Shown here: piece by piece, positions 12,585-54,252 of the stretch
Layout of the letters: every line of letters starts with the position of its first letter
Position numbering within the stretch: the first letter of the stretch is position 1
Source: Sipunculus nudus
Taxonomy: Eukaryota > Annelida > Sipuncula > Golfingiida > Sipunculidae
Assembly (NCBI GenBank): GCA_026874595.1
Contig: CM049309.1
Coordinates: forward strand, 70,848,926 to 70,912,925
DNA length: 64,000 nt
Reading direction: 5' to 3'
The notes under the pieces: model-generated
Seen by the model: the letters and a program-made list of their open reading frames with translations, nothing else
Database searches by the model: none
What the model was told of the DNA's origin: nothing
Translations under genes and position numbers: made by a program

Positions 12585-12600
12585 CCAACGTCTTTATCAT
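12585..12600. repeat. SINE target-site duplication, right copy
   Basis: CCAACGTCTTTATCAT, identical to 12168-12183. Confidence 0.9.
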
Positions 12601-13709: not shown

Positions 13710-13718
13710 GTTTCAGCC
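13710..13718 (+). repeat. 9-bp target-site duplication, left copy
   Basis: GTTTCAGCC directly abuts the left terminus of the 40-kb element and matches 53778-53786 exactly. The shared direct repeat is actually 12 bases long (GTGTTTCAGCCA). With element ends ACGACTG the duplication is 9 bp; moving each end in by one base would make it 11 bp. Confidence 0.88.
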
Positions 13719-13932
13719 ACGACTGTGAAGTTCGACGGACGTCCGACGTCCATTTTTCGTGAAAATGCTCCGTGAATGCCTGCTCTTCCTCCGCTTTTAG
13801 CCGGAAACATATTTCCCTGACCAGCCTTCTGTTCACCGCTTTGCAGTGTCTTTCGCTGATCATCGCTGCCCTCAAGGCTTCGTCAAGATCATGTATATCA
13901 AACGGTGCCAATACACGCTTTCTAATAGACAA
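13719..13932 (-). pseudogene. Outward-facing 71-codon open frame in the left TIR
   Basis: A frame on the minus strand runs from the inner part of the TIR to its very end and then 32 codons into flanking DNA. Its first codon is TTG, with a stop just upstream, so there is no obvious ATG start. It may be an exon remnant, since 'tttgtctattag' before the AAAGCG codons could be a splice acceptor. The peptide is highly charged, with segments such as DLDEALRAAM and FRLKAEEEQAF suggesting helix. I do not recognise the family. The right TIR copy differs at two bases, giving one Arg/Ile change (at the residue after MISE) and one silent change. It may be a leftover of the autonomous parent's gene. Confidence 0.45.
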
Positions 13933-14002
13933 ATTTCACTATTAATAATACTAATAATGCGACTATTATTCTTTTTTTTTTTTAAATCTGCTTGATATAA
14001 AA
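13719..14002. repeat. Unique outer terminal inverted repeat, left
   Basis: Inverse complement of 53498-53777. In the outer 214 bp I count two substitutions by eye (about 99% identity). The inner part, next to the satellite, differs by a few indels in A/T runs. It includes the 10-bp palindrome CGGACGTCCG at 13736-13745 and an outward-facing open frame. Confidence 0.9.
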
Positions 14003-14375
14003 AATGTTATAAAATTTTAAATACGCTAAACAACCATCAAGTTTGGTATCAACGGAAAGTACTTTTCACAGGTAGTCGCATGGTATGAATTTTAGAGTGG
14101 CACAAGTGAGCGTTTTAGAGAAGTCAAATACGACTTTTATTCAATTTTATTTTAATTTAGCGTGAATTTTAAAGTGTTATAAAATTTTAATTACGCTAAA
14201 CAACCCATTAAGTATGGTATCAACGGAAAGTACTTTTTACTGGTAGTCATATGGTATGAAATTTAGAGTTGCACAAGTGAGCGTTTTAGAGCAATCAAAT
14301 ACGACTTTTATTTAATTTTATTTTAATTTAGCGTGAATTTTAAAGTATTATACATCTTTAAATACGCTAAACAAC

Positions 14376-22700: not shown

Positions 22701-25024
22701 TTTAAATACGCTTAACAACTCATCAAGTTTGGTATCAACGGAAAGTACTTTTCACTGGTAGTCACATGGTTTAAAAATTAGAGTGGCACAAGTGAGCGTT
22801 TCAGAGCAGTCAGATACGTCTATTATTCAATTTTTTTTAAATTTCGCGTTGATTTTAAAGTGTTATATATATTTAAATACGCTAAACAACCCATCAAGTT
22901 TGGTATCAACGGAAAGTACTTTTCACTGGTGGTCACATGGTATAAAAATTAGAGTGGCACAAGTGAGCGTTTTAGAGCAGTCAGATACGACTATTATTCA
23001 TTTTTTTTAATTTCTCTTGGATTTAAAAGTGTTATATATATTTAAATACGCTTAACAACCCATCAAGTTTGGTATCAACGGAAAGTACTTTTCACTGGTA
23101 GTCACATGATATAAAAATTAGAGTGGCACAAGTGAGCGTTTTAGAGCAGGAGGATACGACTAATATCCAATTTTTTTTTCAATTTCGCGTTGATTTTAAA
23201 GTGTTATATATATTTAAATACGCTTAAAAACTCATCAAGTTTGGTACCAACGGAAAGTATTTTTTACTGGTAGTCACATGGTATAAAAATTAGAGTGGCA
23301 CAAGTGAGCGTTTTAGAGCAGTGGGATACGACTAATATTCATTTTTTTAAATTTCTCTTGGATTTAAAAGTGTTATATATCTTTCAATACGCTAAACAAC
23401 CCATCAAGTTTGGTATCAACGGAAAGTACTTGGCACTGGTAGTCCCATGGTATATAAATTAGAGTGGAACAAGTGAGCGTTTTAGAGCAGTCAGATACGA
23501 CTATTATTCATTTTTTTTTTTAATTTCTCTTGGATTTAATAGTGTTATATATATTTTAATACGCTAAACAACTCATCAAGTTTGGTACCAACGGAAAGTA
23601 CTTTTCACTGGTAGTCACGTGGTATAAAAATTAGAGTGGCACAAGTGAGCGTTTTAGAGCAGTCAGATACGACTATTATTTCTTTTTTTTTTTAATTTCC
23701 CGTGGATTTTAAAGTGTTATTTATTTTAAAATACGCTAAACAACCCATCAAGTTTGGTATCAACGGAAAGTACTTTTCACTGGTAGTCCCATGGTATATA
23801 AATTAGAGTGGCACAAGTGAGCGTTTTAGAGCAGGCGGGTACGACTAATATTCATTTTTTTTCAATTTCGCGTTGATTTTAAAGTGTTTTAAATATTTAA
23901 ATACGCTTAACAACTCATCAAGTTTGGTACCAACGGAAAGTACTTTTCACTGGTAGTCACATGGTATAAAAATTAGAGTGGCACAAGTGAGCGTTTTAGA
24001 GCAGTCAGATACGACTATTATTCATTTTTTTAAATTTCTCTTGGATTTAAAAGTGTTATATATATTTAAATACGCTTAACAACCCATCAAGTTTGGTATC
24101 AACGGAAAGTACTTTGAACTGGTAGTCCCATGGTATAAAAATTAGAGTGGCACAAGTGAGCGTTTTAGAGCAGCCTGATACGACTATTATTCTTTTTTTT
24201 TCAATTTCGCGTTGATTTTAAAGTGTTATATATATTTAAATACGCTTAACAACTCATCAAGTTTGGTACCAACGGAAAGTACTTTTCACTGGTAGACACA
24301 TGGTATAAAAATTAGAGTGGCACAAGTGAGCGTTTTAGAGCAGTCAGATACGACTATTATTCATTTTTTTTAATTTCCCGTGGATTTAAAAGTGTTATAT
24401 ATATTTAAATACGCTTAACAACCCATCAAGTTTGGTATCAACGGAAAGTACTTTTCACTGGTAGTCCCATTGTATAAAAATTAGAGTGGCACAAGTGAGC
24501 GTTTTAGAGCAGGCGGATACGACTAATATTCAATTTCTTTTCAATTTCGCGTTGATTTTAAAGTGTTATATATATTTAAATACGCTTAACAACTCATCAA
24601 GTTTGGATTAACGGAAAGTACTTTTCACTGGTAGTCACATGGTATAAAAATTAGAGTGGCACAAGTGAGCGTTTTAGAGCAGTCAGATACGACTATTATT
24701 CATTTTTTTAAATTTCTCTTGGATTTAAAAGTGTTATATATATTTAAATACGCTTAACAACCCATCAAGTTTGGTATCCACGGAAAGTACTTTTCACTGG
24801 TAGTCCCATGGTATAAAAATTAGAGTGGCACAAGTGAGCGTTTTAGAGCAGGCGGATACGACTAATATTCAATTTCTTTTCAATTTCGCGTTGATTTTAA
24901 AGTGTTATATATATTTAAATACGCTTAACAACTCATCAAGTTTGGTATCAACGGAAAGTACTTTTCACTGGTAGTCACATGGTATAAAAATTAGAGTGGC
25001 ACAAGTGAGCGTTTTAGAGCAGTC

Positions 25025-28000
25025 AGATACGACTATTATTCATTTTTTAAAATTTCTCTTGGATTTTAAAGTGTTATATATATTTAAATACGCTAAACAA
25101 CCCATCAAGTTTGGTACCAACGGAAAGTACTTTTCACTGGTAGTCACATGGTATAAAAATTAGAGTGGCTCAAGTGAGCGTTTTAGAGCAGTCAGATACG
25201 ACTTTTATTCATTTTTTTTAATTTCTCTTGGATTTAAGTGTTATATATATTTAAATACGCTTAACAACCCATCAAGTTTGGTACCAACGGAAAGTACTTT
25301 TCACTGGTAGTCACATGGTATAAAAATTAGAGTGGCACAAGTGAGCGTTTTAGAGCAGTCAGATACGACTATTATTCATTTTTTTAAATTTCTCTTGGAT
25401 TTAAAAGTGTTATATATATTTAAATACGCTTAACAACCCATCAAGTTTGGTATCAACGGAAAGTACTTTGAACTGGTAGTCCCATGGTATAAAAATTAGA
25501 GTGGCACAAGTGAGCGTTTTAGAGCAGCCTGATACGACTATTATTCTTTTTTTTTCAATTTCGCGTTGATTTTAAAGTGTTATATATATTTAAATACGCT
25601 TAACAACTCATCAAGTTTGGTACCAACGGAAAGTACTTTTCACTGGTAGACACATGGTATAAAAATTAGAGTGGCACAAGTGAGCGTTTTAGAGCAGTCA
25701 GATACGACTATTATTCATTTTTTTTAATTTCCCGTGGATTTAAAAGTGTTATATATATTTAAATACGCTTAACAACCCATCAAGTTTGGTATCAACGGAA
25801 AGTACTTTTCACTGGTAGTCCCATTGTATATAAATTAGAGTGGCACAAGTGAGCGTTTTAGAGCAGTCAGATACGACTATTATTCATTTTTTTAAATTTC
25901 TCTTGGATTTAAAAGTGTTATATATATTTAAATACGCTTAACAACCCATCAAGTTTGGTATACACGGAAAGTACTTTTCACTGCTAGTCCCATGGTATAA
26001 AAATTAGAGTGGCACAAGTGAGCGTTTTAGAGCAGGCGGATACGACTAATATTCAATTTCTTTTCAATTTCGCGTTGATTTTAAAGTGTTATATATATTT
26101 AAATACGCTTAACAACTCATCAAGTTTGGTATCAACGGAAAGTACTTTGAACTGGTAGTCACATGGTATAAAAATTAGAGTGGCACAAGTGAGCGTTTTA
26201 GAGCAGTCAGATACGACTATTATTCATTTTTTAAAATTTCTCTTGGATTTTAAAGTGTTATATATATTTAAATACGCTTAACAACCCATCAAGTTTGGTA
26301 TCAACGGAAAGTACTTTTCACTGGTAGTCACATGGTATAAAAATTAGAGTGGCACAAGAGAGCGTTTTAGAGCAGCCTGATACGACTATTATTCATTTGT
26401 TTTAATTTCCTGTGGATTTTAAAGTGTTATATATATTTAAATACGCTTAACAACTCATCAAGTTTGGTACCAACGGAAAGTACTTTTCACTGGTAGTCAC
26501 ATGGTATAAAAATTAGAGTGGCACACGTGGGCGTTTTAGAGCAGTCAGATACGACTATTATTCATTTTTTTTTAATTTCTCTTGGATTTAAAAGTGTTAT
26601 ATATATTTAAATACGCTTAACAACCCATCAAGTTTGGTATCAACGGAAAGTACTTTTCACTGGTAGTCCCATGGAATAAAAATTAGAGTGGCACAAGTGA
26701 GCGTTTTAGAGCAGGCGGATACGACTAATATTCAATTTCTTTTAAATTTCTCTTGGATTTAAAAGTGTTATATATATTTAAATACGCTAAACAACCCATC
26801 AAGTTTGGTACCAACGGAAAGTACTTTTCACTGGTAGTCACATGGTATAAAAATTAGAGTGGCACAAGTGAGCGTTTTAGAGCAGTCAGATACGACTATT
26901 ATTCATTTTTTTAAATTTCTCTTGGATTTAAAAGTGTTATATATATTTAAATACGCTTAACAACCCATCAAGTTTGATATCAACGGAAAGTACTTTTCAC
27001 TGGTAGTCACATGGTATAAAAATTAGAGTGGCACAAGAGAGCGTTTTAGAGCAGCCTGATACGACTATTATTCATTTGTTTTAATTTCCTGTGGATTTTA
27101 AAGTGTTATATATATTTAAATACGCTTAACAACTCATCAAGTTTGGTACCAACGGAAAGTACTTTTCACTGGTAGTCACATGGTATAAAAATTAGAGTGG
27201 CACACGTGAGCGTTTTAGAGCAGTCAGATACGACTATTATTCATTTTTTTTAATTTCTCTTGGATTTAAAAGTGTTATATATATTTAAATACGCTTAACA
27301 ACCCATCAAGTTTGGTATCAACGGAAAGAACTTTTCACTGGTAGTCCCATGGAATAAAAATTAGAGTGTCACAAGTGAGCGTTTTAGAGCAGGCGGATAC
27401 GACTAATATTCAATTTCTTTTAAATTTCTCTTGGATTTAAAAGTGTTATATATATTTAAATACGCTAAACAACCCATCAAGTTTGGTACCAACGGAAAGT
27501 ACTTTTCACTGGTAGTCACATGGTATAAAAATTAGAGTGGCACAAGTGAGCGTTTTAGAGCAGTCAGATACGACTATTATTCATTTTTTAAAAATTTCTC
27601 TTGGATTTCAAAGTGTTATATATATTTAAATACGCTTAACAACCCATCAAGTTTGATATCAACGGAAAGTACTTTTCACTGGTAGTCACATGGTATAAAA
27701 ATTAGAGTGGCACAAGAGAGCGTTTTAGAGCAGCCTGATACGACTATTATTCATTTGTTTTAATTTCCTGTGGATTTTAAAGTGTTATATATATTTAAAT
27801 ACGCTTAACAACTCATCAAGTTTGGTACCAACGGAAAGTACTTTTCACTGGTAGTCACATGGTATAAAAATTAGAGTGGCACACGTGAGCGTTTTAGAGC
27901 AGTCAGATACAACTATTATTCATTTTTTTTAATTTCTCTTGGATTTAAAAGTGTTATATATATTTAAATACGCTTAACAACCCATCAAGTTTGGTATCAA

Positions 28001-31000
28001 CGGAAAGAACTTTTCACTGGTAGTCCCATGGAATAAAAATTAGAGTGGCACAAGTGAGCGTTTTAGAGCAGGCGGATACGACTAATATTCAATTTCTTTT
28101 AAATTTCTCTTGGATTTAAAAGTGTTATATATATTTAAATACGCTAAACAACCCATCAAGTTTGGTACCAACGGAAAGTACTTTTCACTGGTAGTCACAT
28201 GGTATAAAAATTAGAGTGGCACAAGTGAGCGTTTTAGAGCAGTCAGATACGACTATTATTCATTTTTTAAAAATTTCTCTTGGATTTCAAAGTGTTATAT
28301 ATTTTAAAATACGCTAAACAACCCATCAAGTTTGGTATCAACGGAAAGTACTTTGCACTGGTAGTCCCATGGTATATAAATTAGAGTGGCACAAGTGAGC
28401 GTTTTAGAGCAGGCGGATACGACTAATATTTAATTTTTTTTCAATTTCGCATTGATTTTAAAGTGTTATATATATTTAAATACGCTTAACAACTCATCAA
28501 GTTTGGTACCAACGGAAAGTACTTTTCACTGGTAGACACATGGTATAAAAATTAGGGTGGCACAAGTGAGCGTTTTAGAGCAGTCAGATACGACTATTAT
28601 TCATTTTTTTTAATTTCCCGTGGATTTAAAAGTGTTATATATATTTAAATACGCTTAACAACCCATTAAGTTTGGTATCAACGGAAAGTACTTTTCACTG
28701 GTAGTCCCATTGTATAAAAATTAGAGTGGCACAAGTGAGTGTTTTAGAGCAGGCGGATACGACTAATATTCAATTTATTTTCAATTTCGCGTTGACTTTA
28801 AAGTGTTATATATATTTAAATACGCTTAACAACTCATCAAGTTTGGATTAACGGAAAGTACTTTTCACTGGTAGTCTCATGGTATAAAAATTAGAGTGGC
28901 ACAAGTGAGCGTTTTAGAGCAGTCAGATACGACTATTATTCATTTCTTTAAATTTCTCTTGGATTTAAAAGTGTTATATATATTTAAATACGCTTAACAA
29001 CCCATCAAGTTTGGTATCCACGGTAAGTACTTTTCACTGGTAGTCCCATGGTATAAAAATTAGAGTGGCACAAGAGAGCGTTTTAGAGCAGCCTGATACG
29101 ACTATTATTCATTTTTTTTAATTTCCTGTGGATTTTAAAGTGTTATATATATTTAAATACGCTTAAAAACTCATCAAGTTTGGTACCAACGGAAAGTACT
29201 TTTCACTGGTAGTCACATGGTATAAAAATTAGAGTGGCACAAGTGAGCGTTTTAGAGCAGTCAGATACGACTATTATTCATTTTTTTTTAATTTCTCTTG
29301 GATTTAAAAGTGTTATATATATTTAAATACGCTTAACAACCCATCAAGTTTGGTATCAACGGAAAGTACTTTTCACTGGTAGTCCCATGGAATAAAAATT
29401 AGAGTGGCACAAGTGAGCGTTTTAGAGCAGGCGGATACGACTAATATTCAATTTCTTTTAAATTTCTCTTGGATTTAAAAGTGTTATATATATTTAAATA
29501 CGCTAAACAACCCATCAAGTTTGGTACCAACGGAAAGTACTTTTCACTGGTAGTCACATGGTATAATTAGAGTGGCACAAGTGAGCGTTTTAGAGCAGGC
29601 GGATACGACTAATATTCAATTTATTTTCAATTTCGCGTTGACTTTAAAGTGTTATATATATTTAAATACGCTTAACAACTCATCAAGTTTGGATTAACGG
29701 AAAGTACTTTTCACTGGTAGTCTCATGGTATAAAAATTAGAGTGGCACAAGTGAGCGTTTTAGAGCAGTCAGATACGACTATTATTCATTTCTTTAAATT
29801 TCTCTTGGATTTAAAAGTGTTATATATATTTAAATACGCTTAACAACCCATCAAGTTTGGTATCCACGGTAAGTACTTTTCACTGGTAGTCCCATGGTAT
29901 AAAAATTAGAGTGGCACAAGAGAGCGTTTTAGAGCAGCCTGATACGACTATTATTCATTTTTTTTAATTTCCTGTGGATTTTAAAGTGTTATATATATTT
30001 AAATACGCTTAACAACTCATCAAGTTTGGTACCAACGGAAAGTACTTTTCACTGGTAGTCACATGGTATAAAAATTAGAGTGGCACAAGTGAGCGTTTTA
30101 GAGCAGTCAGATACGACTATTATTCATTTTTTAAAATTTCTCTTGGATTTTAAAGTGTTATATATATTTAAATACGCTAAACAACCCATCAAGTTTGGTA
30201 CCAACGGAAAGTACTTTTCACTGGTAGTCACATGGTATAAAAATTAGAGTGGCTCAAGTGAGCGTTTTAGAGCAGTCAGATACGACTTTTATTCATTTTT
30301 TTTAATTTCTCTTGGATTTAAGTGTTATATATATTTAAATACGCTTAACAACCCATCAAGTTTGGTACCAACGGAAAGTACTTTTCACTGGTAGTCACAT
30401 GGTATAAAAATTAGAGTGGCACAAGTGAGCGTTTTAGAGCAGTCAGATACGACTATTATTCATTTTTTTAAATTTCTCTTGGATTTAAAAGTGTTATATA
30501 TATTTAAATACGCTTAACAACCCATCAAGTTTGGTATCAACGGAAAGTACTTTGAACTGGTAGTCCCATGGTATAAAAATTAGAGTGGCACAAGTGAGCG
30601 TTTTAGAGCAGCCTGATACGACTATTATTCTTTTTTTTTCAATTTCGCGTTGATTTTAAAGTGTTATATATATTTAAATACGCTTAACAACTCATCAAGT
30701 TTGGTACCAACGGAAAGTACTTTTCACTGGTAGACACATGGTATAAAAATTAGAGTGGCACAAGTGAGCGTTTTAGAGCAGTCAGATACGACTATTATTC
30801 ATTTTTTTTAATTTCCCGTGGATTTAAAAGTGTTATATATATTTAAATACGCTTAACAACCCATCAAGTTTGGTATCAACGGAAAGTACTTTTCACTGGT
30901 AGTCCCATTGTATATAAATTAGAGTGGCACAAGTGAGCGTTTTAGAGCAGTCAGATACGACTATTATTCATTTTTTTAAATTTCTCTTGGATTTAAAAGT

Positions 31001-34000: not shown

Positions 34001-35192
34001 GAGCAGTCAGATACGACTATTATTCATTTCTTTAAATTTCTCTTGGATTTAAAAGTGTTATATATATTTAAATACGCTTAACAACCCATCAAGTTTGGTA
34101 TCCACGGTAAGTACTTTTCACTGGTAGTCCCATGGTATAAAAATTAGAGTGGCACAAGAGAGCGTTTTAGAGCAGCCTGATACGACTATTATTCATTTTT
34201 TTTAATTTCCTGTGGATTTTAAAGTGTTATATATATTTAAATACGCTTAAAAACTCATCAAGTTTGGTACCAACGGAAAGTACTTTTCACTGGTAGTCAC
34301 ATGGTATAAAAATTAGAGTGGCACAAGTGAGCGTTTTAGAGCAGTCAGATACGACTATTATTCATTTTTTTTTAATTTCTCTTGGATTTAAAAGTGTTAT
34401 ATATATTTAAATACGCTTAACAACCCATCAAGTTTGGTATCAACGGAAAGTACTTTTCACTGGTAGTCCCATGGAATAAAAATTAGAGTGGCACAAGTGA
34501 GCGTTTTAGAGCAGGCGGATACGACTAATATTCAATTTCTTTTAAATTTCTCTTGGATTTAAAAGTGTTATATATATTTAAATACGCTAAACAACCCATC
34601 AAGTTTGGTACCAACGGAAAGTACTTTTCACTGGTAGTCACATGGTATAATTAGAGTGGCACAAGTGAGCGTTTTAGAGCAGGCGGATACGACTAATATT
34701 CAATTTATTTTCAATTTCGCGTTGACTTTAAAGTGTTATATATATTTAAATACGCTTAACAACTCATCAAGTTTGGATTAACGGAAAGTACTTTTCACTG
34801 GTAGTCTCATGGTATAAAAATTAGAGTGGCACAAGTGAGCGTTTTAGAGCAGTCAGATACGACTATTATTCATTTCTTTAAATTTCTCTTGGATTTAAAA
34901 GTGTTATATATATTTAAATACGCTTAACAACCCATCAAGTTTGGTATCCACGGTAAGTACTTTTCACTGGTAGTCCCATGGTATAAAAATTAGAGTGGCA
35001 CAAGAGAGCGTTTTAGAGCAGCCTGATACGACTATTATTCATTTTTTTTAATTTCCTGTGGATTTTAAAGTGTTATATATATTTAAATACGCTTAACAAC
35101 TCATCAAGTTTGGTACCAACGGAAAGTACTTTTCACTGGTAGTCACATGGTATAAAAATTAGAGTGGCACAAGTGAGCGTTTTAGAGCAGTC
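25025..35192 (+). repeat. 5,084-bp higher-order unit, two tandem copies
   Basis: Rare variants in the first copy recur exactly 5,084 bp later: 'ggctcaag' at 25167/30251, 'aagagagcg' at 26357/31441, 'ttagagtgtcac' at 27361/32445, 'gtagtctcat' at 28871/33955 and 'gtataattag' at 29561/34645. Identity breaks near 24950-25020 on the left and near 35200 on the right, so the two copies are adjacent. Smaller partial copies continue to about 37020 (the 'gtataattag' variant again at 36169 and 37015). This amplification is seen only in the left arm. Confidence 0.88.
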
Positions 35193-38100: not shown

Positions 38101-38790
38101 AATTTCGCGTTTATTTTAAAGTGTTATATATATTTAAATACGCTTAACAACCCATCAAGTTTGGTATCAACGGAAAGTACTTTTTACTGGTAGTCCCATG
38201 GTATAAAAATCAGAGTGGCACAAGTGAGCGTTTTAGAGCAGTCAGATACGACTATTATTCATTTTTTTAAATTTCCCGTGGATTTTAAAGTGTTATATAT
38301 ATTTAAAAACCCTTAACAACCCATCTAGTTTGGTATCAACGGAAAGTACTTTTCACTGGTAGTCCCATGGTATAAAAATAAGAGTGGCACAAGTGAGCGT
38401 TTTAGAGCAGCCTGATACGACTATTATTCATTTTTTTTTATTTCCCGTGGATTTTAAAGTGTTATATATATTTAAATACGCTTAACAACTCATCAAGTTT
38501 GGTAACAACGGAAAGTACTTTTCACTGGTAGTCACGTGGTATAAAAATTAGAGTGGCACAAGAGAGCGTTTTAGAGCAGCCTGATACGACTATTATTCAT
38601 TTTTTTTAAATTTCCTGTGGATTTTAAAGTGTTATATATATTTAAATACGCTTAACAACCCATCAAGTTTGATATCAACGGAAAGTACTTTTCACTGGTA
38701 GTCACATGATATAAAAATTAGAGTGGCACAAGTGAGCGTTTTAGAGCAGGGGATACGACTAATATTCAATTTTTTTCAATTTCGCGTTGA

Positions 38791-38798
38791 TTTTAAAA
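38791..38798. other. Inversion junction of the two satellite arms
   Basis: At TTTTAAAA the plus-oriented array ('cgcgttgattttaaa') passes directly into the minus-oriented array ('ttaaaatccaagagaaat'). There is no spacer. The two monomers that meet are different subtypes, so the local palindrome is exact only over the 8 bases, while orientation reverses completely. Confidence 0.93.
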
Positions 38799-39131
38799 TC
38801 CAAGAGAAATTTAAAAAAAATGAATAATAGTCGTATCTGACTGCTCTAAAACGCTCACTTGTGCCACTCTAATTTTTATATCATGTGACGACCAGTGAAA
38901 AGCACTTTCCGTCGTTACCAAACTTATTGAGTTGTTTAGCGTATTTAAATATATATAACACTTTAAAATCCACGGGAAATAAAAAAAATGAATAATAGTC
39001 GTATCAGGCTGCTCTAAAACGCTCACTTGTGCCACTCTAATTTTTATACCATGTGACTTCCAGTGAAAAGTACTTTCCGTTGGTACCAAACATGATGAAT
39101 TGTTAAGCGTATTTAAAGATATATAACACTT

Positions 39132-42100
39132 TTAAATCCAAGAGAAATTTAAAAAAAATGAATAATAGTCGTATCCCACTGCTCTAAAACGCTCACTTGT
39201 GCCACTCTGATTTTTATACCATGTGACCACCAGTGAAAAGTACTTTCCGTTGATACCAAACTTGATGGGTTGTTTAGCGTATTTAAAGATGTATAATACT
39301 TTAAAATTCACGCTAAATAAAAAAAAATGAATAATAGTCGTACCTGACTGCTCTAAAACGGTCTCTTGTGCCACTCTAAAATTCATACCATGTGACTACC
39401 AGTAAAAAGTTCTTTCCGTTTATACCAAACGTGCTGGGTTGTTTAGCGTATTTAAAGATTAATAACACTCTAAAATTCACGGTAAATTTAAAAAAAAATG
39501 AATAATAGTCGTATCTGACTGCTCTGAAACGCACACTTGTGCCACTCAAAAATTTATACCATGTGAATACCAGTGAAAAGTCCTTTCCGTTGATACCAAA
39601 CTTGATGGGTTGTTTAGCGTATTTAAAGATGTATAATACTTTAAAATTCACGCTATATAAAAAAATTTGAATAAAAGTCGTACTTGACTGCTCTAAAACG
39701 CTCACTTGTGCCACTCTAAAATTCATACCATAAGACTACCAGTGAAAAGTTCTTTCCGTTGATACCAAACGTGATGGGTTGTTTAGCGTAATTAAAATTT
39801 TATATCATTTTAAAATTCACGCTAAATTAAAATAAAAATGAATAATAGTCGTATTTGACTGCTCTAAAACACTCACTTGTGCCACTCTAAAATTCATACC
39901 ATGTGAATACCAGTAAAATGTCCTTTCCGTTGATACCAAACTTGATGGGTTGTTTAGCGTATTTAAAGATGTATAATACTTTAAAATTCACGCTAAATTA
40001 AAAAAAAAATTAATAACAGTCGTACTTGACTGCTCTAAAACGCTCACTTGTGCCACTCTAAAATTCATACCATGTGAATACCAGTAAAAAGTTCTTTCCG
40101 TTTATACCAAACTTGATGGGTTGTTTAGCGTATTTAAAAATTAATAACACTTTAAAATTCACGCTAAATTAAAAAAAAAAATGAATAATAGTCGTATCTG
40201 ACTGCTCTTAAACACATACTTGTGCCACTCTAAAATTCATACCTTGTGAATTCCAGTAAAAAGTCCTTTCCGTTGATACCAAACTTGATGGGTTGTTTAG
40301 CGTATTTAAAGATGTATAATACTTTAAAATTCACGCTAAATTAAAAAATTTGAATAAAGGTCGTACTTGACTGCTCTAAAACGCTCACTTGTGCCACTCT
40401 AATTTTTATACCATGTGACTACCAGTGAAAAGGTCTTTCCGTTGGTACCAAACTTGATGAGTTGTTAAGCGTATTTAAATATATATAACACTTTAAAATC
40501 CACAGGAAATTAAAAAAAAATGAATAATAGTCGTATCAGGCTGCTCTAAAACGCTCACTTGTGCCAATCTAATTTATATACCATGGGACTACCAGTGAAA
40601 AGTACTTTCCGTTGATACCAAACTTGATGGGTTGTTAAGGGTTTTTAAATATATATAACACTTTAAAATCAACGCAAAATTTAAAAAAATGAATAATAGT
40701 CGTATCTGACTGCTCTAAAACGCTCACTTGTGCCACTCTAATTTTTATACCATGTGACTACCAGTGAAAAGTACTTTCCGTTGGTACCAAACTTGATGAG
40801 TTGTTTAGCGTATTTAAATATATATAACACTTTAAAATCCACAGGAAATTAAAAAAAAATGAATAATAGTCGTATCAGGCTGCTCTAAAACGCTCACTTG
40901 TGCCACTCTAATTTATATACCATGGGACTACCAGTGAAAAGTACTTTCCGTTGGTACCAAACTTGATGAGTTGTTAAGCGTATTTAAATATGTATAACAC
41001 TTTAAAATCCACAGGAAATTAAAAAAAATGAATAATAGTCGTATCAGGCTGCTCTAAAACACTCTCTTGTGCCACTCTATTTTTTATACCATGGGACTAC
41101 CAGTGAAAAGTACTTTCCGTGGATACCAAACTTGATGGGTTGTTTAGCGTATTTTAAAATATATAACACTTAAAAATCCAAGAGAAATTAAAAAAATGAA
41201 TAATAGTCGTATCTGACTGCTCTAAAACGCTCACTTGTGCCACTCTAATTTTTATTCCATGTGACTACCAGTGAAAAGTACTTTCCGTTGGTACCAAACT
41301 TGATGAGTTGTTAAGCGTATTTAAATATATATAACACTTTAAAATCAACGCGAAATTGAAAAAAAATTGAATATTAGTCGTATCCGCCTGCTCTAAAACG
41401 CTCACTTGTGCCATTCTAATTTATATACCATGGGACTACCAGTGAAAAGTACTTTCCGTTGATACCAAACTTGATGGGTTGTTTAGCGTATTTTAAAATA
41501 TATAACACTTTTAAATCCAAGAGAAATTTAAAAAAAATGAATAATAGTCGTATCTGACTGCTCTAAAACGCTCACTTGTGCCACTCTAATTTTTATACCA
41601 TGTGACTACCAGTGAAAAGTACTTTCCGTTAATACCAAACTTGATGAGCTGTTAAGCGCATTTAAATATATATAACACTTTAAAATCAACGCGAAATTGA
41701 AAAAAAATTGAATAATTGTCGTATCTTACTGCTCTAAAACGCTCACTTGTGCCACTCTAATTTTTATACCACGTGACTACCAGTGCAAAGTACTTTCCGT
41801 TGATACCAAACTTGATGGGTTGTTTAGCGTATTTAAAGATATATAACACTTTTAAATCCAAGAGAAATTTAAAAAAAATGAATAATAGTCGTATCTGACT
41901 GCTCTAAAACGCTCACTTGTGCCACTCTAATTTTTATACCATGTGACTACCAGTGAAAAGTACTTTCCGTTAATACCAAACTTGATGAGCTGTTAAGCGC
42001 ATTTAAATATATATAACACTTTAAAATCCACGGGAAATAAAAAAAAATGAATAACAGTCGTATCAGGCTGCTCTAAAACGCTCACTTGTGCCACTCTAAT

Positions 42101-45100
42101 TTATATACCATGGGACTACCAGTGCAAAGTACTTTCCGTTGATACCAAACTTGATGGGTTGTTTAGCGTATTTAAAGATATATAACACTTTTAAATCCAA
42201 GAGAAATTTAAAAAAAATGAATAATAGTCGTATCCCACTGCTCTAAAACGCTCACTTGTGCCACTCTGATTTTTATACCATGAGACCACCAGTGAAAAGT
42301 ACTTTCCGTTGATACCAAACTTGATGGGTTGTTTAGCGTATTTAAAGATGTATAATACTTTAAAATTCACGCTAAATAAAAAAAAATGAATAATAGTCGT
42401 ACCTGACTGCTCTAAAACGGTCTCTTGTGCCACTCTAAAATTCATACCATGTGACTACCAGTAAAAAGTTCTTTCCGTTTATACCAAACGTGCTGTGTTT
42501 AGCGTATTTAAAGATTAATAACACTTTAAAATTCACGGTAAATTTAAAAAAAAATGAATAATAGTCGTATCTGACTGCTCTAAAACGCACACTTGTGCCA
42601 CTCTAAAATTTATACCATGTGAATACCAGTGAAAAGTCCTTTCCGTTGATACCAAACTTGATGGGTTGTTTAGCGTATTTAAAGATGTATAATACTTTAA
42701 AATTCACGCTAAATAAAAAAATTTGAATAAAAGTCGTACTTGACTGCTCTAAAATGCTCACTTGTGCCACTCTAAAATTCATACCATAAGACTACCAGTG
42801 AAAAGTTCTTTCCGTTGATACCAAACGTGATGGGTTGTTTAGCGTAATTAAAATTTTATATCACTTTAAAATTCACGCTAAATTAAAATAAAAATGAATA
42901 ATAGTCGTATTTGACTGCTCTAAAACACTCACTTGTGCCACTCTAAAATTCATACCATGTGAATACCAGTAAAATGTCCTTTCCGTTGATACCAAACTTG
43001 ATGGGTTGTTTAGCGTATTTAAAGATGTATAATACTTTAAAATTCACGCTAAATTAAAAAAAAAATTAATAACAGTCGTACTTGACTGCTCTAAAACGCT
43101 CACTTGTGCCACTCTAAAATTCATACCATGTGAATACCAGTAAAAAGTTCTTTCCGTTTATACCAAACTTGATGGGTTGTTTAGCGTATTTAAAAATTAA
43201 TAACACTTTAAAATTCACTCTAAATTAAAAAAAAAAATGAATAATAGTCGTATCTGACTGCTCTTAAACGCATACTTGTGCCACTCTAAAATTCATACCT
43301 TGTGAATTCCAGTAAAAAGTCCTTTCCGTTGATACCAAACTTGATGGGTTGTTTAGCGTATTTAAAGATGTATAATACTTTAAAATTCACGCTAAATTAA
43401 AAAATTTGAATAAAGGTCGTACTTGACTGCTCTAAAACGCTCACTTGTACCACTCTAATTTTTATACCATGTGACTACCAGTGAAAAGTACTTTCCGTTG
43501 GTACCAAACTTGATGAGTTGTTAAGCGTATTTAAATATATATAACACTTTAAAATCCACAGGAAATTAAAAAAAAAATGAATAATAGTCGTATCAGGCTG
43601 CTCTAAAACGCTCACTTGTGCCACTCTAATTTATATACCATGGGACTACCAGTGAAAAGTACTTTCCGTTGATACCAAACTTGATGGGTTGTTAAGGGTT
43701 TTTAAATATATATAACACTTTAAAATCAACGCAAAATTTAAAAAAATGAATAATAGTCGTATCTGACTGCTCTAAAACGCTCACTTGTGCCACTCTAATT
43801 TTTATACCATGTGACTACCAGTGAAAAGTACTTTCCGTTGGTACCAAACTTGATGAGTTGTTTAGCGTATTTAAATATATATAACACTTTAAAATCCACA
43901 GGAAATTAAAAAAAAATGAATAATAGTCGTATCAGGCTGCTCTAAAACGCTCACTTGTGCCTCTCTAATTTATATACCATGGGACTACCAGTGAAAAGTA
44001 CTTTCCGTTGGTACCAAACTTGATGAGTTGTTAAGCGTATTTAAATATGTATAACACTTTAAAATCCACAGGAAATTAAAAAAAATGAATAATAGTCGTA
44101 TCAGGCTGCTCTAAAACACTCTCTTGTGCCACTCTATTTTTTATACCATGGGACTACCAGTGAAAAGTACTTTCCGTGGATACCAAACTTGATGGGTTGT
44201 TTAGCGTATTTTAAAATATATAACACTTAAAAATCCAAGAGAAATTAAAAAAATGAATAATAGTCGTATCTGACTGCTCTAAAACGCTCACTTGTGCCAC
44301 TCTAATTTTTATTCCATGTGACTACCAGTGAAAAGTACTTTCCGTTGGTACCAAACTTGATGAGTTGTTAAGCGTATTTAAATATATATAACACTTTAAA
44401 ATCCACAGGAAATTGAAAAAAAATTGAATATTAGTCGTATCCGCCTGCTCTAAAACGCTCACTTGTGCCATTCTAATTTATATACCATGGGACTACCAGT
44501 GAAAAGTACTTTCCGTTGATACCAAACTTGATGGGTTGTTTAGCGTATTTTAAAATATATAACACTTTTAAATCCAAGAGAAATTTAAAAAAAATGAATA
44601 ATAGTCGTATCTGACTGCTCTAAAACGCTCACTTGTGCCACTCTAATTTTTATACCATGTGACTACCAGTGAAAAGTACTTTCCGTTAATACCAAACTTG
44701 ATGAGCTGTTAAGCGCATTTAAATATATATAACACTTTAAAATCAACGCGAAATTGAAAAAAAATTGAATAATTGTCGTATCTTACTGCTCTAAAACGCT
44801 CACTTGTGCCACTCTAATTTTTATACCACGTGACTACCAGTGAAAAGTACTTTCCGTTGGTACCAAACTTGATGAGTTGTTAAGCGTATTTAAATATATA
44901 TAACACTTTAAAATCCACGGGAAATAAAAAAAAATGAATAACAGTCGTATCAGGCTGCTCTAAAACGCTCACTTGTGCCACTCTAATTTATATACCATGG
45001 GACTACCAGTGCAAAGTACTTTCCGTTGATACCAAACTTGATGGGTTGTTTAGCGTATTTAAAGATATATAACACTTTTAAATCCAAGAGAAATTTTAAA

Positions 45101-48100
45101 AAAATGAATAATAGTCGTATCCCACTGCTCTAAAACGCTCACTTGTGCCACTCTGATTTTTATACCATGTGACCACCAGTGAAAAGTACTTTCCGTTGAT
45201 ACCAAACTTGATGGGTTGTTTAGCGTATTTAAAGATGTATAATACTTTAAAATTCACGCTAAATAAAAAAAAATGAATAATAGTCGTACCTGACTGCTCT
45301 AAAACGGTCTCTTGTGCCACTCTAAAATTCATACCATGTGACTACCAGTAAAAAGTTCTTTCCGTTTATACCAAACGTGCTGTGTTTAGCGTATTTAAAG
45401 ATTAATAACACTTTAAAATTCACGGTAAATTTAAAAAAAAATGAATAATAGTCGTATCTGACTGCTCTGAAACGCACACTTGTGCCACTCTAAAATTCAT
45501 ACCATGTGAATACCAGTGAAAAGTCCTTTCCGTTGATACCAAACTTGATGGGTTGTTTAGCGTATTTAAAGATGTATAATACTTTAAAATTCACGCTAAA
45601 TAAAAAAATTTGAATAAAAGTCGTACTTGACTGCTCTAAAACGCTCACTTGTGCCACTCTAAAATTCATACCATAAGACTACCAGTGAAAAGTTCTTTCC
45701 GTTGATACCAAACGTGATGGGTTGTTTAGCGTAATTAAAATTTTATATCACTTTAAAATTCACGCTAAATTAAAATAAAAATGAATAATAGTCGTATTTG
45801 ACTGCTCTAAAACACTCACTTGTGCCACTCTAAAATTCATACCATGTGAATACCAGTAAAATGTCCTTTCCGTTGATACCAAACTTGATGGGTTGTTTAG
45901 CGTATTTAAAGATGTATAATACTTTAAAATTCACGCTAAATTAAAAAAAAAAATTAATAACAGTCGTACTTGACTGCTCTAAAACGCTCACTTGTGCCAC
46001 TCTAAAATTCATACCATGTGAATACCAGTAAAAAGTTCTTTCCGTTTATACCAAACTTGATGGGTTGTTTAGCGTATTTAAAAATTAATAACACTTTAAA
46101 ATTCACGCTAAATTAAAAAAAAATGAATAATAGTCGTATCTGACTGCTCTTAAACGCATACTTGTGCCACTCTAAAATTCATACCTTGTGAATACCAGTA
46201 AAAAGTCCTTTCCGTTGATACCAAACTTGATGGGTTGTTTAGCGTATTTAAAGATGTATAATACTTTAAAATTCACGCTAAATTAAAAAATTTGAATAAA
46301 GGTCGTACTTGACTGCTCTAAAACGCTCACTTGTGCCACTCTAATTTTTATACCATGTGACTACCAGTGAAAAGTACTTTCCGTTGGTACCAAACTTGAT
46401 GAGTTGTTAAGCGTATTTAAATATATATAACACTTTAAAATCCACAGGAAATTAAAAAAAAATGAATAATAGTCGTATCAGGCTGCTCTAAAACGCTCAC
46501 TTGTGCCACTCTAATTTATATACCATGGGACTACCAGTGAAAAGTACTTTCCGTTGATACCAAACTTGATGGGTTGTTAAGGGTTTTTAAATATATATAA
46601 CACTTTAAAATCAACGCAAAATTTTAAAAAATGAATAATAGTCGTATCTGACTGCTCTAAAACGCTCACTTGTGCCACTCTAATTTTTATACCATGTGAC
46701 TACCAGTGAAAAGTACTTTCCGTTGGTACCAAACTTGATGAGTTGTTTAGCGTATTTAAATATATATAACACTTTAAAATCCACAGGAAATTAAAAAAAA
46801 ATGAATAATAGTCGTATCAGGCTGCTCTAAAACGCTTACTTGTGCCACTCTAATTTATATACCATGGGACTACCAGTGAAAAGTACTTTCCGTTGGTACC
46901 AAACTTGATGAGTTGTTAAGCGTATTTAAATATGTATAACACTTTAAAATCCACAGGAAATTAAAAAAAATGAATAATAGTCGTATCAGGCTGCTCTAAA
47001 ACACTCTCTTGTGCCACTCTATTTTTTATACCATGGGACTACCAGTGAAAAGTACTTTCCGTGGATACCAAACTTGATGGGTTGTTTAGCGTATTTTAAA
47101 ATATATAACACTTAAAAATCCAAGAGAAATTAAAAAAATGAATAATAGTCGTATCTGACTGCTCTAAAACGCTCACTTGTGCCACTCTAATTTTTATTCC
47201 ATGTGACTACCAGTGAAAAGTACTTTCCGTTGGTACCAAACTTGATGAGTTGTTAAGCGTATTTAAATATATATAACACTTTAAAATCAACGCGAAATTG
47301 AAAAAAAATTGAATATTAGTCGTATCCGCCTGCTCTAAAACGCTCACTTGTGCCATTCTAATTTATATACCATGGGACTACCAGTGAAAAGTACTTTCCG
47401 TTGATACCAAACTTGATGGGTTGTTTAGCGTATTTTAAAATATATAACACTTTTAAATCCAAGAGAAGTTTAAAAAAAATGAATAATAGTCGTATCTGAC
47501 TGCTCTAAAACGCTCACTTGTGCCACTCTAATTTTTATACCATGTGACTACCAGTGAAAAGTACTTTCCGTTAATACCAAACTTGATGAGCTGTTAAGCG
47601 CATTTAAATATATATAACACTTTAAAATCAACGCGAAATTGAAAAAAAATTGAATAATTGTCGTATCTTACTGCTCTAAAACGCTCACTTGTGCCACTCT
47701 AATTTTTATACCACGTGACTACCAGTGAAAAGTACTTTCCGTTGGTACCAAACTTGATGAGTTGTTAAGCGTATTTAAATATATATAACACTTTAAAATC
47801 CACGGGAAATTAAAAAAAATGAATAACAGTCGTATCAGGCTGCTCTAAAACGCTCACTTGTGCCACTCTAATTTATATACCATGGGACTACCAGTGCAAA
47901 GTACTTTCCGTTGATACCAAACTTGATGGGTTGTTTAGCGTATTTAAAGATATATAACACTTTTAAATCCAAGAGAAATTTTAAAAAAATGAATAATAGT
48001 CGTATCCCACTGCTCTAAAACGCTCACTTGTGCCACTCTGATTTTTATACCATGTGACCACCAGTGAAAAGTACTTTCCGTTGATACCAAACTTGATAGG

Positions 48101-49030
48101 TTGTTTAGCGTATTTAAAGATGTATAATACTTTAAAATTCATGCTAAATAAAAAAAATGAATAATAGTCGTACCTGACTGCTCTAAAACGGTCTCTTGTG
48201 CCACTCTAAAATTCATACCATGTGACTACCAGTAAAAAGTTCTTTCCGTTTATACCAAACGTGCTGGGTTGTTTAGCGTATTTAAAGATTAATAACACTT
48301 TAAAATTCACGGTAAATTTAAAAAAAAATGAATAATAGTCGTATCTGACTGCTCTGAAACGCACACTTGTGCCACTCTAAAATTCATACCATGTGAATAC
48401 CAGTGAAAAGTCCTTTCCGTTGATACCAAACTTGATGGGTTGTTTAGCGTATTTAAAGATGTATAATACTTTAAAATTCACGCTAAATAAAAAAATTTGA
48501 ATAAAAGTCGTACTTGACTGCTCTAAAACGCTCACTTGTGCCACTGAAAAATTCATACCATAAGACTACCAGTGAAAAGTTCTTTCCGTTGATACCAAAC
48601 GTGATGGGTTGTTTAGCGTAATTAAAATTTTATATCACTTTAAAATTCACGCTAAATTAAAATAAAAATGAATAATAGTCGTATTTGACTGCTCTAAAAC
48701 ACTCACTTGTGCCACTCTAAAATTCATACCATGTGAATACCAGTAAAATGTCCTTTCCGTTGATACCAAACTTGATGGGTTGTTTAGCGTATTTAAAGAT
48801 GTATAATACTTTAAAATTCACGCTAAATTAAAAAAAAAATTAATAACAGTCGTACTTGACTGCTCTAAAACGCTAACTTGTGCCACTCTAAAATTCATAC
48901 CATGTGAATACCAGTAAAAAGTTCTTTCCGTTTATACCAAACTTGATGGGTTGTTTAGCGTATTTAAAAATTAATAACACTTTAAAATTCACGCTAAAAA
49001 AAAAAAAATGAATAATAGTCGTATCTGACT
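39132..49030 (-). repeat. Right-arm higher-order repeat, ~2.9-3.06-kb units
   Basis: The variant 'gtatcccactgctctaaaac' occurs near 39172, 42231, 45119 and 48002, giving offsets of about 3,059, 2,888 and 2,883 bp. 'cttaaacgcatacttgtg'-like variants recur near 40206, 43265, 46150 and 49035 with the same spacing. Read on the minus strand, the variants appear in the same order as in the left-arm higher-order unit. Confidence 0.85.
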
Positions 49031-52000
49031 GCTCTTAAACGCATACTTGTGTCACTCTAAAATTCATACCTTGTGAATACCAGTGAAAAGTCCTTTCCGT
49101 TGATACCAAACTTGATGGGTTGTTTAGCGTATTTAAAGATGTATAATACTTTAAAATTCACGCTAAATTAAAAAATTTGAATAAAGGTCGTACTTGACTG
49201 CTCTAAAACGCTCACTTGTGCCACTCTAAAATTCATACCATGTGACTACCTGTTAAAAGTACTTTCCGTTGATACCAAATTTGATGGGTTGTTTAGCGTA
49301 ATTAAAATTTTATATCACTTTGAAATTCACGCTAAATTAAAATAAAATTAAATAAAAGTCGTATTTAATTGCTCTAAAACGCTCACTTGTGCCACTCTAA
49401 ATTTCATACCATGTGACTACCAGTAAAAAGTACTTTCCGTTCATACCATACTTAATGGGTTGTTTAGCGTAATTAAAATTTTATAACACTTTAAAATTCA
49501 CGCTAAATTATAATAAAATTGAATAAAAGTCGTATTTGACTTCTCTAAAACGCTCACTTGTGCCACTCTAAAATTCATACCATGCGACTACCTGTGAAAA
49601 GTTCTTTCCGTTGATACCAAACTTGATGGGTTGTTTAGCGTATTTAAAGATGTATAATACTTTAAAATTCACGCTAAATCAAAAAAATTGAATAAAAGTC
49701 GTACTTGACTGCTCTAAAACGGTCACTTGTGCCACTCTAAAATTCATACCATGTGACTACCAGTAAAAAGTTCTTTCCATTTATACCAAACTTGATGGGT
49801 TGTTTAGCGTATTTAAAGATTAATAACACTTTAAAATTCACGCTAAATTAAAAAAAAATGAATAATAGTAGTATCTGACTGCTCTAAAACGCTCACTTGT
49901 GCCACTCTAAAATTCATACCATGTGAATACCACTAAAAAGTCCTTTCCGTTGATACCAAACGTGATGGGTTGTTTAACGTAATTAAAATTTGATAACACT
50001 TTAAAATTCACGCTAAATTAAAAAAAATGAATAATAGTCGTACCTGACTGCTCTAAAACGGTCTCTTGTGCCACTCTAAAATTCATACCATGTGACTACC
50101 AGTAAAAAGTTCTTTCCGTTTATACCAAACGTGATGGGTTGTTTAGCGTATTTAAAGATTAATAACACTTTAAAATTCACGGTAAATTTTAAAAAAAATG
50201 AATAATAGTCGTATCTGACTGCTCTGAAACGCACACTTGTGCCACTCTAAAATTCATACCATGTGAATACCAGTGAAAAGTCCTTTCCGTTGATACCAAA
50301 CTTGATGGGTTGTTTAGCGTATTTAAAGATGTATAATACTTTAAAATTCACGCTAAATAAAAAAATTTGAATAAAAGTCGTACTTGACTGCTCTAAAACG
50401 CTTACTTGTGCAACTCTAAAATTCATACCATAAGACTACCAATGAAAAGTTCTTTCCGTTGATACCAAACTTGATGGGTTTTTTAACGTAATTAAAATTT
50501 TATATCACTTTAAAATTCACGCTAAATTAAAATAAAAATGAATAATAGTCGTATTTGACTGCTCTAAAACACTCACTTGTGCCACTCTAAAATTTATACC
50601 ATGTTAATACCAGTAAAAAGTCCTTTCCGTTGATACCAAACTTGATGGGTTGTTTAGCGTATTTAAAGATGTATAATACTTTAAAATTCACGCTAAATTA
50701 AAAAAAAAATTAATAACAGTCTTACTTGACTGCTCTAAAACGCTCACTTGTGCCACTCTAAAATTCATACCATGTGAATACCACTAAAAAGTCCTTTCCG
50801 TTGATACCAAACGTGATGGGTTGTTTAACGTAATTAAAATTTGATAACACTTTAAAATTCATACCATGTGAATACCAGTGAAAAGTCCTTTCCGTTGATA
50901 CCAAACTTGATGGGTTGTTTAGCGTATTTAAAAATTAATAACACTTTAAAATTCACGCTAAATTAAAATAAAATTGAATAAAAGTCGTATTTGACTTCTC
51001 TTAAACGCATACTTGTGTCACTCTAAAATTCATACCTTGTGAATACCAGTGAAAAGTCCTTTCCGTTGATACCAAACTTGATGGGTTGTTTAGCGTATTT
51101 AAAGATGTATAATACTTTAAAATTCACGCTAAATTAAAAAATTTGAATAAAGGTCGTACTTGACTGCTCTAAAACGCTCACTTGTGCCACTCTAAAATTC
51201 ATACCATGTGACTACCTGTTAAAAGTACTTTCCGTTGATACCAAATTTGATGGGTTGTTTAGCGTAATTAAAATTTTATATCACTTTGAAATTCACGCTA
51301 AATTAAAATAAAATTAAATAAAAGTCGTATTTAATTGCTCTAAAACGCTCACTTGTGCCACTCTAAATTTCATACCATGTGACTACCAGTAAAAAGTACT
51401 TTCCGTTCATACCATACTTAATGGGTTGTTTAGCGTAATTAAAATTTTATAACACTTTAAAATTCACGCTAAATTATAATAAAATTGAATAAAAGTCGTA
51501 TTTGACTTCTCTAAAACGCTCACTTGTGCCACTCTAAAATTCATACCATGCGACTACCTGTGAAAAGTTCTTTCCGTTGATACCAAACTTGATGGGTTGT
51601 TTAGCGTATTTAAAGATGTATAATACTTTAAAATTCACGCTAAATCAAAAAAATTGAATAAAAGTCGTACTTGACTGCTCTAAAACGGTCACTTGTGCCA
51701 CTCTAAAATTCATACCATGTGACTACCAGTAAAAAGTTCTTTCCATTTATACCAAACTTGATGGGTTGTTTAGCGTATTTAAAGATTAATAACACTTTAA
51801 AATTCACGCTAAATTAAAAAAAAATGAATAATAGTAGTATCTGACTGCTCTAAAACGCTCACTTGTGCCACTCTAAAATTCATACCATGTGAATACCACT
51901 AAAAAGTCCTTTCCGTTGATACCAAACGTGATGGGTTGTTTAACGTAATTAAAATTTGATAACACTTTAAAATTCACGCTAAATTAAAAAAAATGAATAA

Positions 52001-52810
52001 TAGTCGTACCTGACTGCTCTAAAACGGTCTCTTGTGCCACTCTAAAATTCATACCATGTGACTACCAGTAAAAAGTTCTTTCCGTTTATACCAAACGTGA
52101 TGGGTTGTTTAGCGTATTTAAAGATTAATAACACTTTAAAATTCACGGTAAATTTTAAAAAAAATGAATAATAGTCGTATCTGACTGCTCTGAAACGCAC
52201 ACTTGTGCCACTCTAAAATTCATACCATGTGAATACCAGTGAAAAGTCCTTTCCGTTGATACCAAACTTGATGGGTTGTTTAGCGTATTTAAAGATGTAT
52301 AATACTTTAAAATTCACGCTAAATAAAAAAATTTGAATAAAAGTCGTACTTGACTGCTCTAAAACGCTTACTTGTGCAACTCTAAAATTCATACCATAAG
52401 ACTACCAATGAAAAGTTCTTTCCGTTGATACCAAACTTGATGGGTTTTTTAACGTAATTAAAATTTTATATCACTTTAAAATTCACGCTAAATTAAAATA
52501 AAAATGAATAATAGTCGTATTTGACTGCTCTAAAACACTCACTTGTGCCACTCTAAAATTTATACCATGTTAATACCAGTAAAAAGTCCTTTCCGTTGAT
52601 ACCAAACTTGATGGGTTGTTTAGCGTATTTAAAGATGTATAATACTTTAAAATTCACGCTAAATTAAAAAAAAAATTAATAACAGTCTTACTTGACTGCT
52701 CTAAAACGCTCACTTGTGCCACTCTAAAATTCATACCATGTGAATACCACTAAAAAGTCCTTTCCGTTGAAACCAAACGTGATGGGTTGTTTAACGTAAT
52801 TAAAATTTGA
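49030..52810 (-). repeat. 1,966-bp duplication in the outer right arm
   Basis: 'gcatacttgt' at 49041 and 51007, 'catgcgacta' at 49581 and 51547, and the stretch around 50841 and 52807 all share the offset 1,966. This duplication is specific to the right arm. Confidence 0.85.
50840..50880 (-). repeat. Truncated satellite monomer
   Basis: The sequence passes from 'cactttaaaattca' straight into 'taccatgtgaatacc', skipping the part of the monomer that normally separates two copies of the motif TAAAATTCA (about 85-90 bp). The deletion endpoints coincide with that short direct repeat, as expected for slippage or microhomology-mediated loss. The sister copy near 52807 lacks the deletion. Confidence 0.8.
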
Positions 52811-53497
52811 TAACACTTTAAAATTCACGCTAAATTAAAAAAAAATGAATAATAGTCGTACCTGACTGCTCTAAAACGGTCTCTTGTGCCACTCTAAAAT
52901 TCATACCATGTGACTACCAGTAAAAAGTTCTTTCCGTTTATACCAAACGTGATGGGTTGTTTAGCGTATTTAAAGATTAATAACACTTTAAAATTCACGG
53001 TAAATTTAAAAAAAAATGAATAATAGTCGTATCTGACTGCTCTGAAACGCACACTTGTGCCACTCTAAAATTCATACCATGTGAATACCAGTGAAAAGTC
53101 CTTTCCGTTGATACCAAACTTGATGGGTTGTTTAGCGTATTTAAAAATTAATAACACTTTAAAATTCACGCTAAATTAAAATAAAATTGAATAAAAGTCG
53201 TATTTGACTTCTCTAAAACGCTCACTTGTGCCACTCTAAAATTCATACCATGTGAATACCAGTAAAAAGTCCTTTCCGTTGATACCAAACTTGATGGGTT
53301 GTTTAGCGTAATTAAAATTTTATAGCACTTTAAAATTCACGCTAAATTAAAATAAAATTGAATAAAAGTCGTATTTGACTTCTCTAAAACGCTCACTTGT
53401 GCCACTCTAAAATTCATATCATACCACCTGTGAAAAGTACTTTCCGTTGATACCAAACTTGATGGGTTGTTTAGCGTATTTAAAATTTTATAACATT

Positions 53498-53777
53498 TTT
53501 ATATCAAGCAGATTTTAAAAAAAAGAATAATAGTCGCATTATTAGTATTATTAATAGTGAAATTTGTCTATTAGAAAGCGTGTATTGGCACCGTTTGATA
53601 TACATGATCTTGACGAAGCCTTGAGGGCAGCGATGATCAGCGAAATACACTGCAAAGCGGTGAACAGAAGGCTGGTTAGGGAAATATGTTTCCGGCTAAA
53701 AGCGGAGGAAGAGCAGGCATTCACGGAGCATTTTCACGAAAAATGGACGTCGGACGTCCGTCGAACTTCACAGTCGT
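53498..53777. repeat. Unique outer terminal inverted repeat, right
   Basis: Inverse complement of 13719-14002, ending in CACAGTCGT at the element boundary. Near identity with the left end over the outer 214 bp implies recent insertion or gene conversion between the ends. Confidence 0.9.
53564..53777 (+). pseudogene. Outward-facing 71-codon open frame in the right TIR
   Basis: Same frame as in the left TIR, with Ile in place of one Arg. It opens with TTG at 53564, just after an in-frame TGA at 53558-53560, and remains open to the element end, reading 13 codons into the flank before stopping at 53818. The product is not recognised. The absence of an ATG near the start and its confinement to the TIR argue for an exon fragment rather than a complete gene. 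Confidence 0.45.
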
Positions 53778-53786
53778 GTTTCAGCC
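53778..53786 (+). repeat. 9-bp target-site duplication, right copy
   Basis: GTTTCAGCC, identical to 13710-13718, directly abutting the right terminus. Confidence 0.88.
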
Positions 53787-54081: not shown

Positions 54082-54088
54082 CTATATG
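54082..54088 (+). repeat. 7-bp target-site duplication, left copy
   Basis: CTATATG immediately before the left TIR, matching 58622-58628. An alternative reading is a 5-bp TATAT duplication with each end extended by one G/C base. Confidence 0.8.
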
Positions 54089-54252
54089 CACAGGCGCTTG
54101 AATCCCTATTTGTAATAAAGTCTTCATATCCCCAGTGTTCTTAAAAATACTACGAAAGAATCAGTTAAAAAAAAACAATTAAAAAAACGGTCATACCATA
54201 CTATCTATTATATTATGACTCAAGGTAGGTAACTCGGCAAAAACCCTTTCGA
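54089..54252. repeat. Terminal inverted repeat, left, of the 4.5-kb element
   Basis: Runs from CACAGGCGC to 'accctttcga' and is the inverse complement of 58457-58621. Identity stops abruptly after 'ctttcga'. Confidence 0.93.

Follow-up and report, generated by a model that had tools for sequence, protein, structure and literature searches.

The unit at positions 13719–53777 of the window (the whole stretch of 64,000 nucleotides of Sipunculus nudus DNA analysed here) is likely a non-autonomous foldback DNA transposon, predicted to be of the Mutator type, in which the repeats of each arm would have been amplified by unequal exchange. It measures 40,059 bp and lies between two copies of GTTTCAGCC (Table 1). 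A preliminary description of this DNA had given the satellite array the boundaries of a single transposed unit, a view that the inverted ends and the target-site duplication support.

Table 1. Coordinates of the element, its parts and its recent internal duplications in the window
Feature	Positions	Strand	Basis or remark
Left target-site duplication, GTTTCAGCC	13710–13718	+	Exact-match count, flank-pair trials
Left unique outer terminal inverted repeat, ~238 bp, 45% GC	13719–13956	+	Alignment of ends
Left satellite arm, 146 monomers preceded by a partial one (tandem-repeat call starts at 13960)	13957–38794	+	
Recent left-arm segmental duplication: 24877–30132 again at 29961–35216, 99.9% identical (5 mismatches in 5,256)	24877–35216	+	
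Central palindrome GATTTTAAAATC, 12 bp	38789–38800	.	Arms meet here in register
Right satellite arm, 87 monomers, one of them a 94-bp partial (50854–50947)	38795–53539	-	
Right-arm repeated blocks, offsets mostly ~2.9–3.1 kb or multiples, 98.8–99.4% identical	39320–49008	-	
Recent right-arm duplication: 48999–50861 again at 50965–52827, 99.7% identical (6 mismatches in 1,863)	48999–52827	-	
Right unique outer terminal inverted repeat	53540–53777	-	Alignment of ends
Right target-site duplication, GTTTCAGCC	53778–53786	+	Exact-match count, flank-pair trials

The 9-bp duplication reported to abut the inverted ends was recovered to the base and is unique in the window, where GTTTCAGCC occurs twice, at the two ends of the element only. 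One hundred dinucleotide shuffles of the window contained a mean of 0.32 matches to GTTTCAGCC, and three of them had two or more matches somewhere. The terminal 19-mer is likewise confined to the two ends, where its copies are inverted relative to each other, with two matches at up to three mismatches compared with 0.00 expected. Together with trials on random pairs of flank positions, which shared a 9-mer in 6 of 200,000 cases, these shuffles led us to reject chance repeats as the source of the boundaries. An assembly artefact, with collapsed or duplicated arms joined between chance repeats, is very improbable: although very long repeats of 99.9% identity are hard to assemble, the window contains no N, the longest copy pair differs at 5 of 5,256 bases and the flank-pair frequency just given also argues against it. 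The long near-identical duplications may nevertheless contain assembly error.

Extending the comparison leftward at both ends gives a direct repeat of 11 bp (GTGTTTCAGCC); the two extra bases are the last two of the right end, and the repeat is 9 bp when the inverted repeat is taken as symmetric. A duplication of 9 bp, or at most 11 bp, falls within the 8–11-bp range given for the Mutator superfamily in the parts of the source compared here (PMC6446971). The duplication adjoins the element boundary, as in foldback-type DNA transposons.

The ends themselves are inverted repeats, as had been described. The unique outer repeats are identical at 236 of 238 bases (2 mismatches) and, with the first monomer of each arm included, 469 of 475 aligned bases agree (6 mismatches), with 8 internal gap bases. 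The junction between unique sequence and array is found at the same place on both sides. The close inverted repeat extends over ~400–480 bp per end, beyond which the mirror identity drops: it is 98–99% over the first 400 bp, 92–96% up to 1 kb, ~90% up to 1.6 kb and 81–86% past 1.6 kb, with the exception of one block at 94%. Long inverted terminal repeats with tandem repeats inside them are a foldback-type feature and are present here. Helitrons and Helentrons are not known to have long inverted ends or target duplications, and the long inverted ends and 9-bp duplication of this element set it apart from them.

The earlier reading of a Mutator-like or foldback element stands in its foldback part, for which the ends, the duplication and the inverted arms all speak; the Mutator part is a prediction from the length of the duplication alone. 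Both ends start with ACG and have G/C at two of the first three bases, the first being A. In the excerpt compared here, arthropod MULEs with a transposase are 1.4 to 10.0 kb long, and most have conserved G/C at the first three end bases (PMC13359780). Set against these, the ACG start weakens the Mutator assignment a little.

The interior is satellite in two opposite orientations, in agreement with the preliminary description, and the tandem arrays occupy positions 13960–53540. All 233 monomers belong to one family; the plus strand carries 146 of them and the minus strand 87. Monomer length is 169–171 bp in 200 of the 233 and 166–173 bp in the full ones; one partial monomer measures 94 bp. The arms join at GATTTTAAAATC in the same monomer phase, with no spacer and no middle domain, and are unequal about the palindrome centre (25,076 versus 14,983 bp).

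Mean divergence between monomers is 10.5% (232 aligned, the 94-bp partial being excluded). Both arms show a weak dimer register, mean divergence being lower at lag 2 than at lag 1. The outer 50 monomers of the left arm diverge by ~11%, compared with 5–8% further in, where this arm is at its most homogeneous; in the right arm, divergence is highest in the block beside the centre (13.6%). In both arms, the first monomer differs by 1.2% from its mirror counterpart, whereas the nearest monomer of its own arm is 7.6% (left) or 5.4% (right) away, indicating that the terminal unit was passed down as an inverted pair.

We found no significant similarity between the outer repeat and the monomer, since the score was equalled by 88 of 200 shuffles on one strand and by 164 of 200 on the other. 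A derivation of the monomer from the end sequence is unsupported, as its local score is matched by that many shuffles. The lack of a detectable relation between the two would suit an array that arose or was captured separately, for example by recombination of a circular satellite molecule into a short TIR element, with the arms inverted later. We consider such an origin improbable, since the two ends lead into the array at an identical monomer phase, each through the same divergent first monomer; the mirrored zonation of the arms (see below) also speaks against it, although with moderate weight only.

Internal ungapped matches of at least 500 bp at 97% identity or more number 56, of which 55 are on the same strand. 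The sole inverted match, which links the arms, is 519 bp long and 97.1% identical. Since each of the long near-identical duplications stays within its own arm, with this one exception, the arms most likely expanded separately. The pattern fits unequal exchange inside each arm, in which the unique ends and the inversion point would form the edges.

After collapsing, 61 and 36 monomers remain in the two arms and show mirrored zonation with a Spearman coefficient of 0.76, a value reached by none of 1000 permutations and none of 35 circular shifts (best shift 0.71). Runs of at least three collinear monomers shared by the arms number 6 versus 0 in the reversed control at 4% divergence and 15 versus 5 at 5%; at looser thresholds, the counts are 74 versus 63 (6%) and 134 versus 92 (7%). 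The excess over the reversed control is clear only at the strict thresholds, and we regard the zonation as moderate evidence. Because the first monomers pair with their mirror counterparts, mirror identity declines inward and outer monomers resemble outer monomers after collapsing, the arrangement of inverted arms with repeats in them is probably older than the expansion, with strong evidence over the outermost 0.5 kb and moderate evidence beyond it.

The two ends diverge by 1.26%, from 6 substitutions (95% interval 0.5–2.7%). Collapsing the within-arm blocks younger than 1.26% leaves 93–101 monomers, or 16.4–17.7 kb (five run-length settings), and across the divergence interval the collapsed size ranges from 11.4 to 25.7 kb. 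At the point estimate, arm-specific duplications younger than the end divergence make up over half of the length. If the ends have not undergone gene conversion and mutation rates are similar, ~16–18 kb of distinct array existed when the ends were last identical. The insertion would be no older than the end divergence, given no end conversion since and similar rates in ends and array. We rejected the end divergence as a strict insertion clock, as the ends may differ before insertion or be converted after it.

The preliminary description had offered two histories, in which either a 40-kb element moved or a small one expanded. The sequence points between the two, with ~16–18 kb left, given no end conversion. 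Because this much (11–26 kb over the uncertainty) remains after collapsing, the element that landed was probably not tiny, and it need not have been 40 kb long. This conclusion fails if the ends were gene-converted later, and conversion between the ends, which would break the size inference, is plausible in a foldback.

Two other histories within the foldback reading were weighed against this one. It is rather unlikely that nearly all of the 40 kb grew in place after the insertion of a small foldback or MITE-like element (~1 kb, one or two monomers per arm). Close mirror identity over only ~400–480 bp per end and within-arm duplications as young as 0.1% are consistent with this course of events, but the divergence of the array (mean 10.5%) is far above the 1.26% of the ends, and with ~16–18 kb left after collapsing, this course would require gene conversion to have kept the ends alike. 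Transposition of the whole 40-kb unit in one step, with little change since, is unlikely. The boundaries are single and clean, the duplication is intact, and composite units with hundreds of kilobases between foldback elements have moved in Drosophila, according to the excerpt compared (PMC6431247); however, duplications at 0.1% and 0.3%, compared with 1.26% for the ends, suggest recent continued growth. Such young within-arm duplications do not date the insertion.

In the reading that we prefer, a predicted transposase supplied in trans would have moved a foldback that already carried repeats into GTTTCAGCC by cut and paste. The tandem repeats would have been amplified by unequal exchange, each arm separately, and the ends would have stayed intact because the expansion ran inside the arms. 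It is possible, although somewhat doubtful, that single foldback transposons can take satellite arrays of tens of kilobases with them and that this unit, which consists solely of two opposed satellite arms and their ends, carried at least some 16 kb of array in one jump. If true, satellite blocks can be delivered fully formed to new sites by cut-and-paste transposition. The origin and spread of satellites are a matter of debate. At this sequenced locus, both ends, the target duplication and the whole expanded array are preserved, so that the order of insertion and expansion can be tested via alleles and copies. The locus further illustrates the extent to which foldback arms can expand while their boundaries persist. 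Should more copies with long arrays exist, transposition would offer a direct route for planting satellite blocks.

No open frame of more than 119 residues lies inside the element. Sixteen open frames from the element and its flanks were compared with Pfam, and none reached a curated cut-off, with no transposase domain and no PHD-finger transposase among them. The flank sample consisted of 13 of the 77 open frames of at least 60 residues (E up to 1 or up to 0.1), and these 13 gave no family. For the two array frames of at least 100 residues inside the element, one gave sub-threshold matches only (best E 0.096, 13.4 bits versus 27) and the other none.

A 72-residue open frame lies within the outer repeat (13720–13935, minus strand). 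No homologue was recovered at E ≤ 0.01, where a single candidate had words in common with the query, and no solved structure at E up to 1. Read with the flank, it shows a weak Pfam match to DUF3323 below the cut-off (E 0.05, 13.9 bits versus 26.6). We considered a captured gene fragment or a transposase remnant; the frame may be due to chance.

Rfam gave no match at gathering scores. Neither the terminal 23-mer nor the monomer 21-mer was found in viral contigs, and a query with positions 13700–14360 had no match in the plasmid collection. In bacterial and archaeal genomes, the monomer 21-mer had one match, on a chromosome of Catenovulum sediminis; this match (L001, 7315–7338) spans only 24 exact bases, or 31 at 93.5%, when compared with the whole element and is probably due to chance. 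The collections hold mainly prokaryotes, viruses and plasmids, and these negatives therefore say little.

An element of this kind is already known; what is new is the size, the complete sequence, the absent middle domain and the presence of intact ends and target together with expanded arms. The preliminary description knew of no animal element of this size built in this way. The build is in fact known, from Tetris and Rehavkus-1_TC, but the size does exceed that of the foldback elements in the literature compared, for which excerpts of the cited papers were used throughout. In searches of openly licensed literature and in these excerpts (including those of PMC7004042, PMC12628747 and PMC12910113), we found no foldback that had been sequenced at this size with its two ends and duplication intact.

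Tetris of Drosophila virilis and Drosophila americana, as excerpted, is an apparently non-autonomous foldback with 8–10-bp duplications and ~220-bp repeats (TIR-220) in its inverted arms, and these repeats have expanded to arrays of up to 66 copies; fibre-FISH shows long TIR-220 arrays flanked by two outer domains (PMC4079207). The element described here resembles Tetris in having an outer flanking domain and satellite-sized tandem repeats in each inverted arm. Whereas Tetris has inner and middle domains and inverted repeats of up to 1,735 bp, our element has arms of 25 and 15 kb and no middle domain and, unlike Tetris, keeps its ends and duplication intact around 233 monomers. Tetris shares a 37-bp stretch of its outer domain with the monomer, whereas nothing is detectable between monomer and end here, a comparison made by description.

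Rehavkus-1_TC of Tribolium is 9.5 kb long and carries a 164-bp satellite in its inverted termini, mostly as five and eight monomers, according to the excerpt compared (PMC10218199). The Rehavkus group is described there as having 9-bp duplications and a PHD-finger transposase (PMC10218199, PMC6446971). The 9-bp duplication, the repeats near the termini and the similar monomer length liken our element to this group, by description and not by end sequences; Rehavkus-1_TC is, however, far shorter (9.5 kb), and we found no transposase here in the 16 open frames scanned.

The Mutator/foldback element Tm1 of root-knot nematodes has composite inverted repeats with tandem motifs, and 45 of 53 copies have duplications of 8–10 bp, mostly 9 bp; it differs in its motif of ~14 bp and in its short elements, with one copy described in the excerpt at 1,080 bp (PMC3169594). 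Galileo, of the P superfamily, has foldback-like long inverted repeats with internal tandem repeats; in contrast to the present element, its inverted repeats are only 0.5–1.2 kb long and contain transposase binding sites that were tested, as stated in the excerpt (PMC3688188). For Galileo, the repeats have been proposed to assist transposition.

In Crassostrea gigas, satellite arrays of up to 89 monomers are tied to mobile elements, and the same satellite forms a standalone array that is interrupted by an assembly gap and comprises 232 monomers (~40 kb) (PMC8268682, as excerpted). The oyster carriers are Helitron/Helentron-like and the 40-kb array is described in that source as standalone, whereas the array described here lies between transposon ends.

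No match between flank and element was found within the window. The flanks contain several repeats of their own. Window positions 1–867 hold a 337-bp tandem repeat of 2.5 copies that touches the left window edge, with a related piece (80–81%) at 3514–3593. A diverged direct duplication of ~580 bp, 75% identical, is found at 1006–1588 and 1688–2268. A tRNA-Leu-like call of only 72 bases (12514–12585) overlaps 12485–12539, which has an inverted relative (82%) at 62534–62589; the two may represent a tRNA-derived dispersed repeat. In the right flank, a 170-bp sequence occurs as two inverted copies, 98% identical (54084–54252 and 58457–58627), and is possibly a short dispersed repeat; a 199-bp tandem repeat of 2.9 copies lies at 56782–57353.
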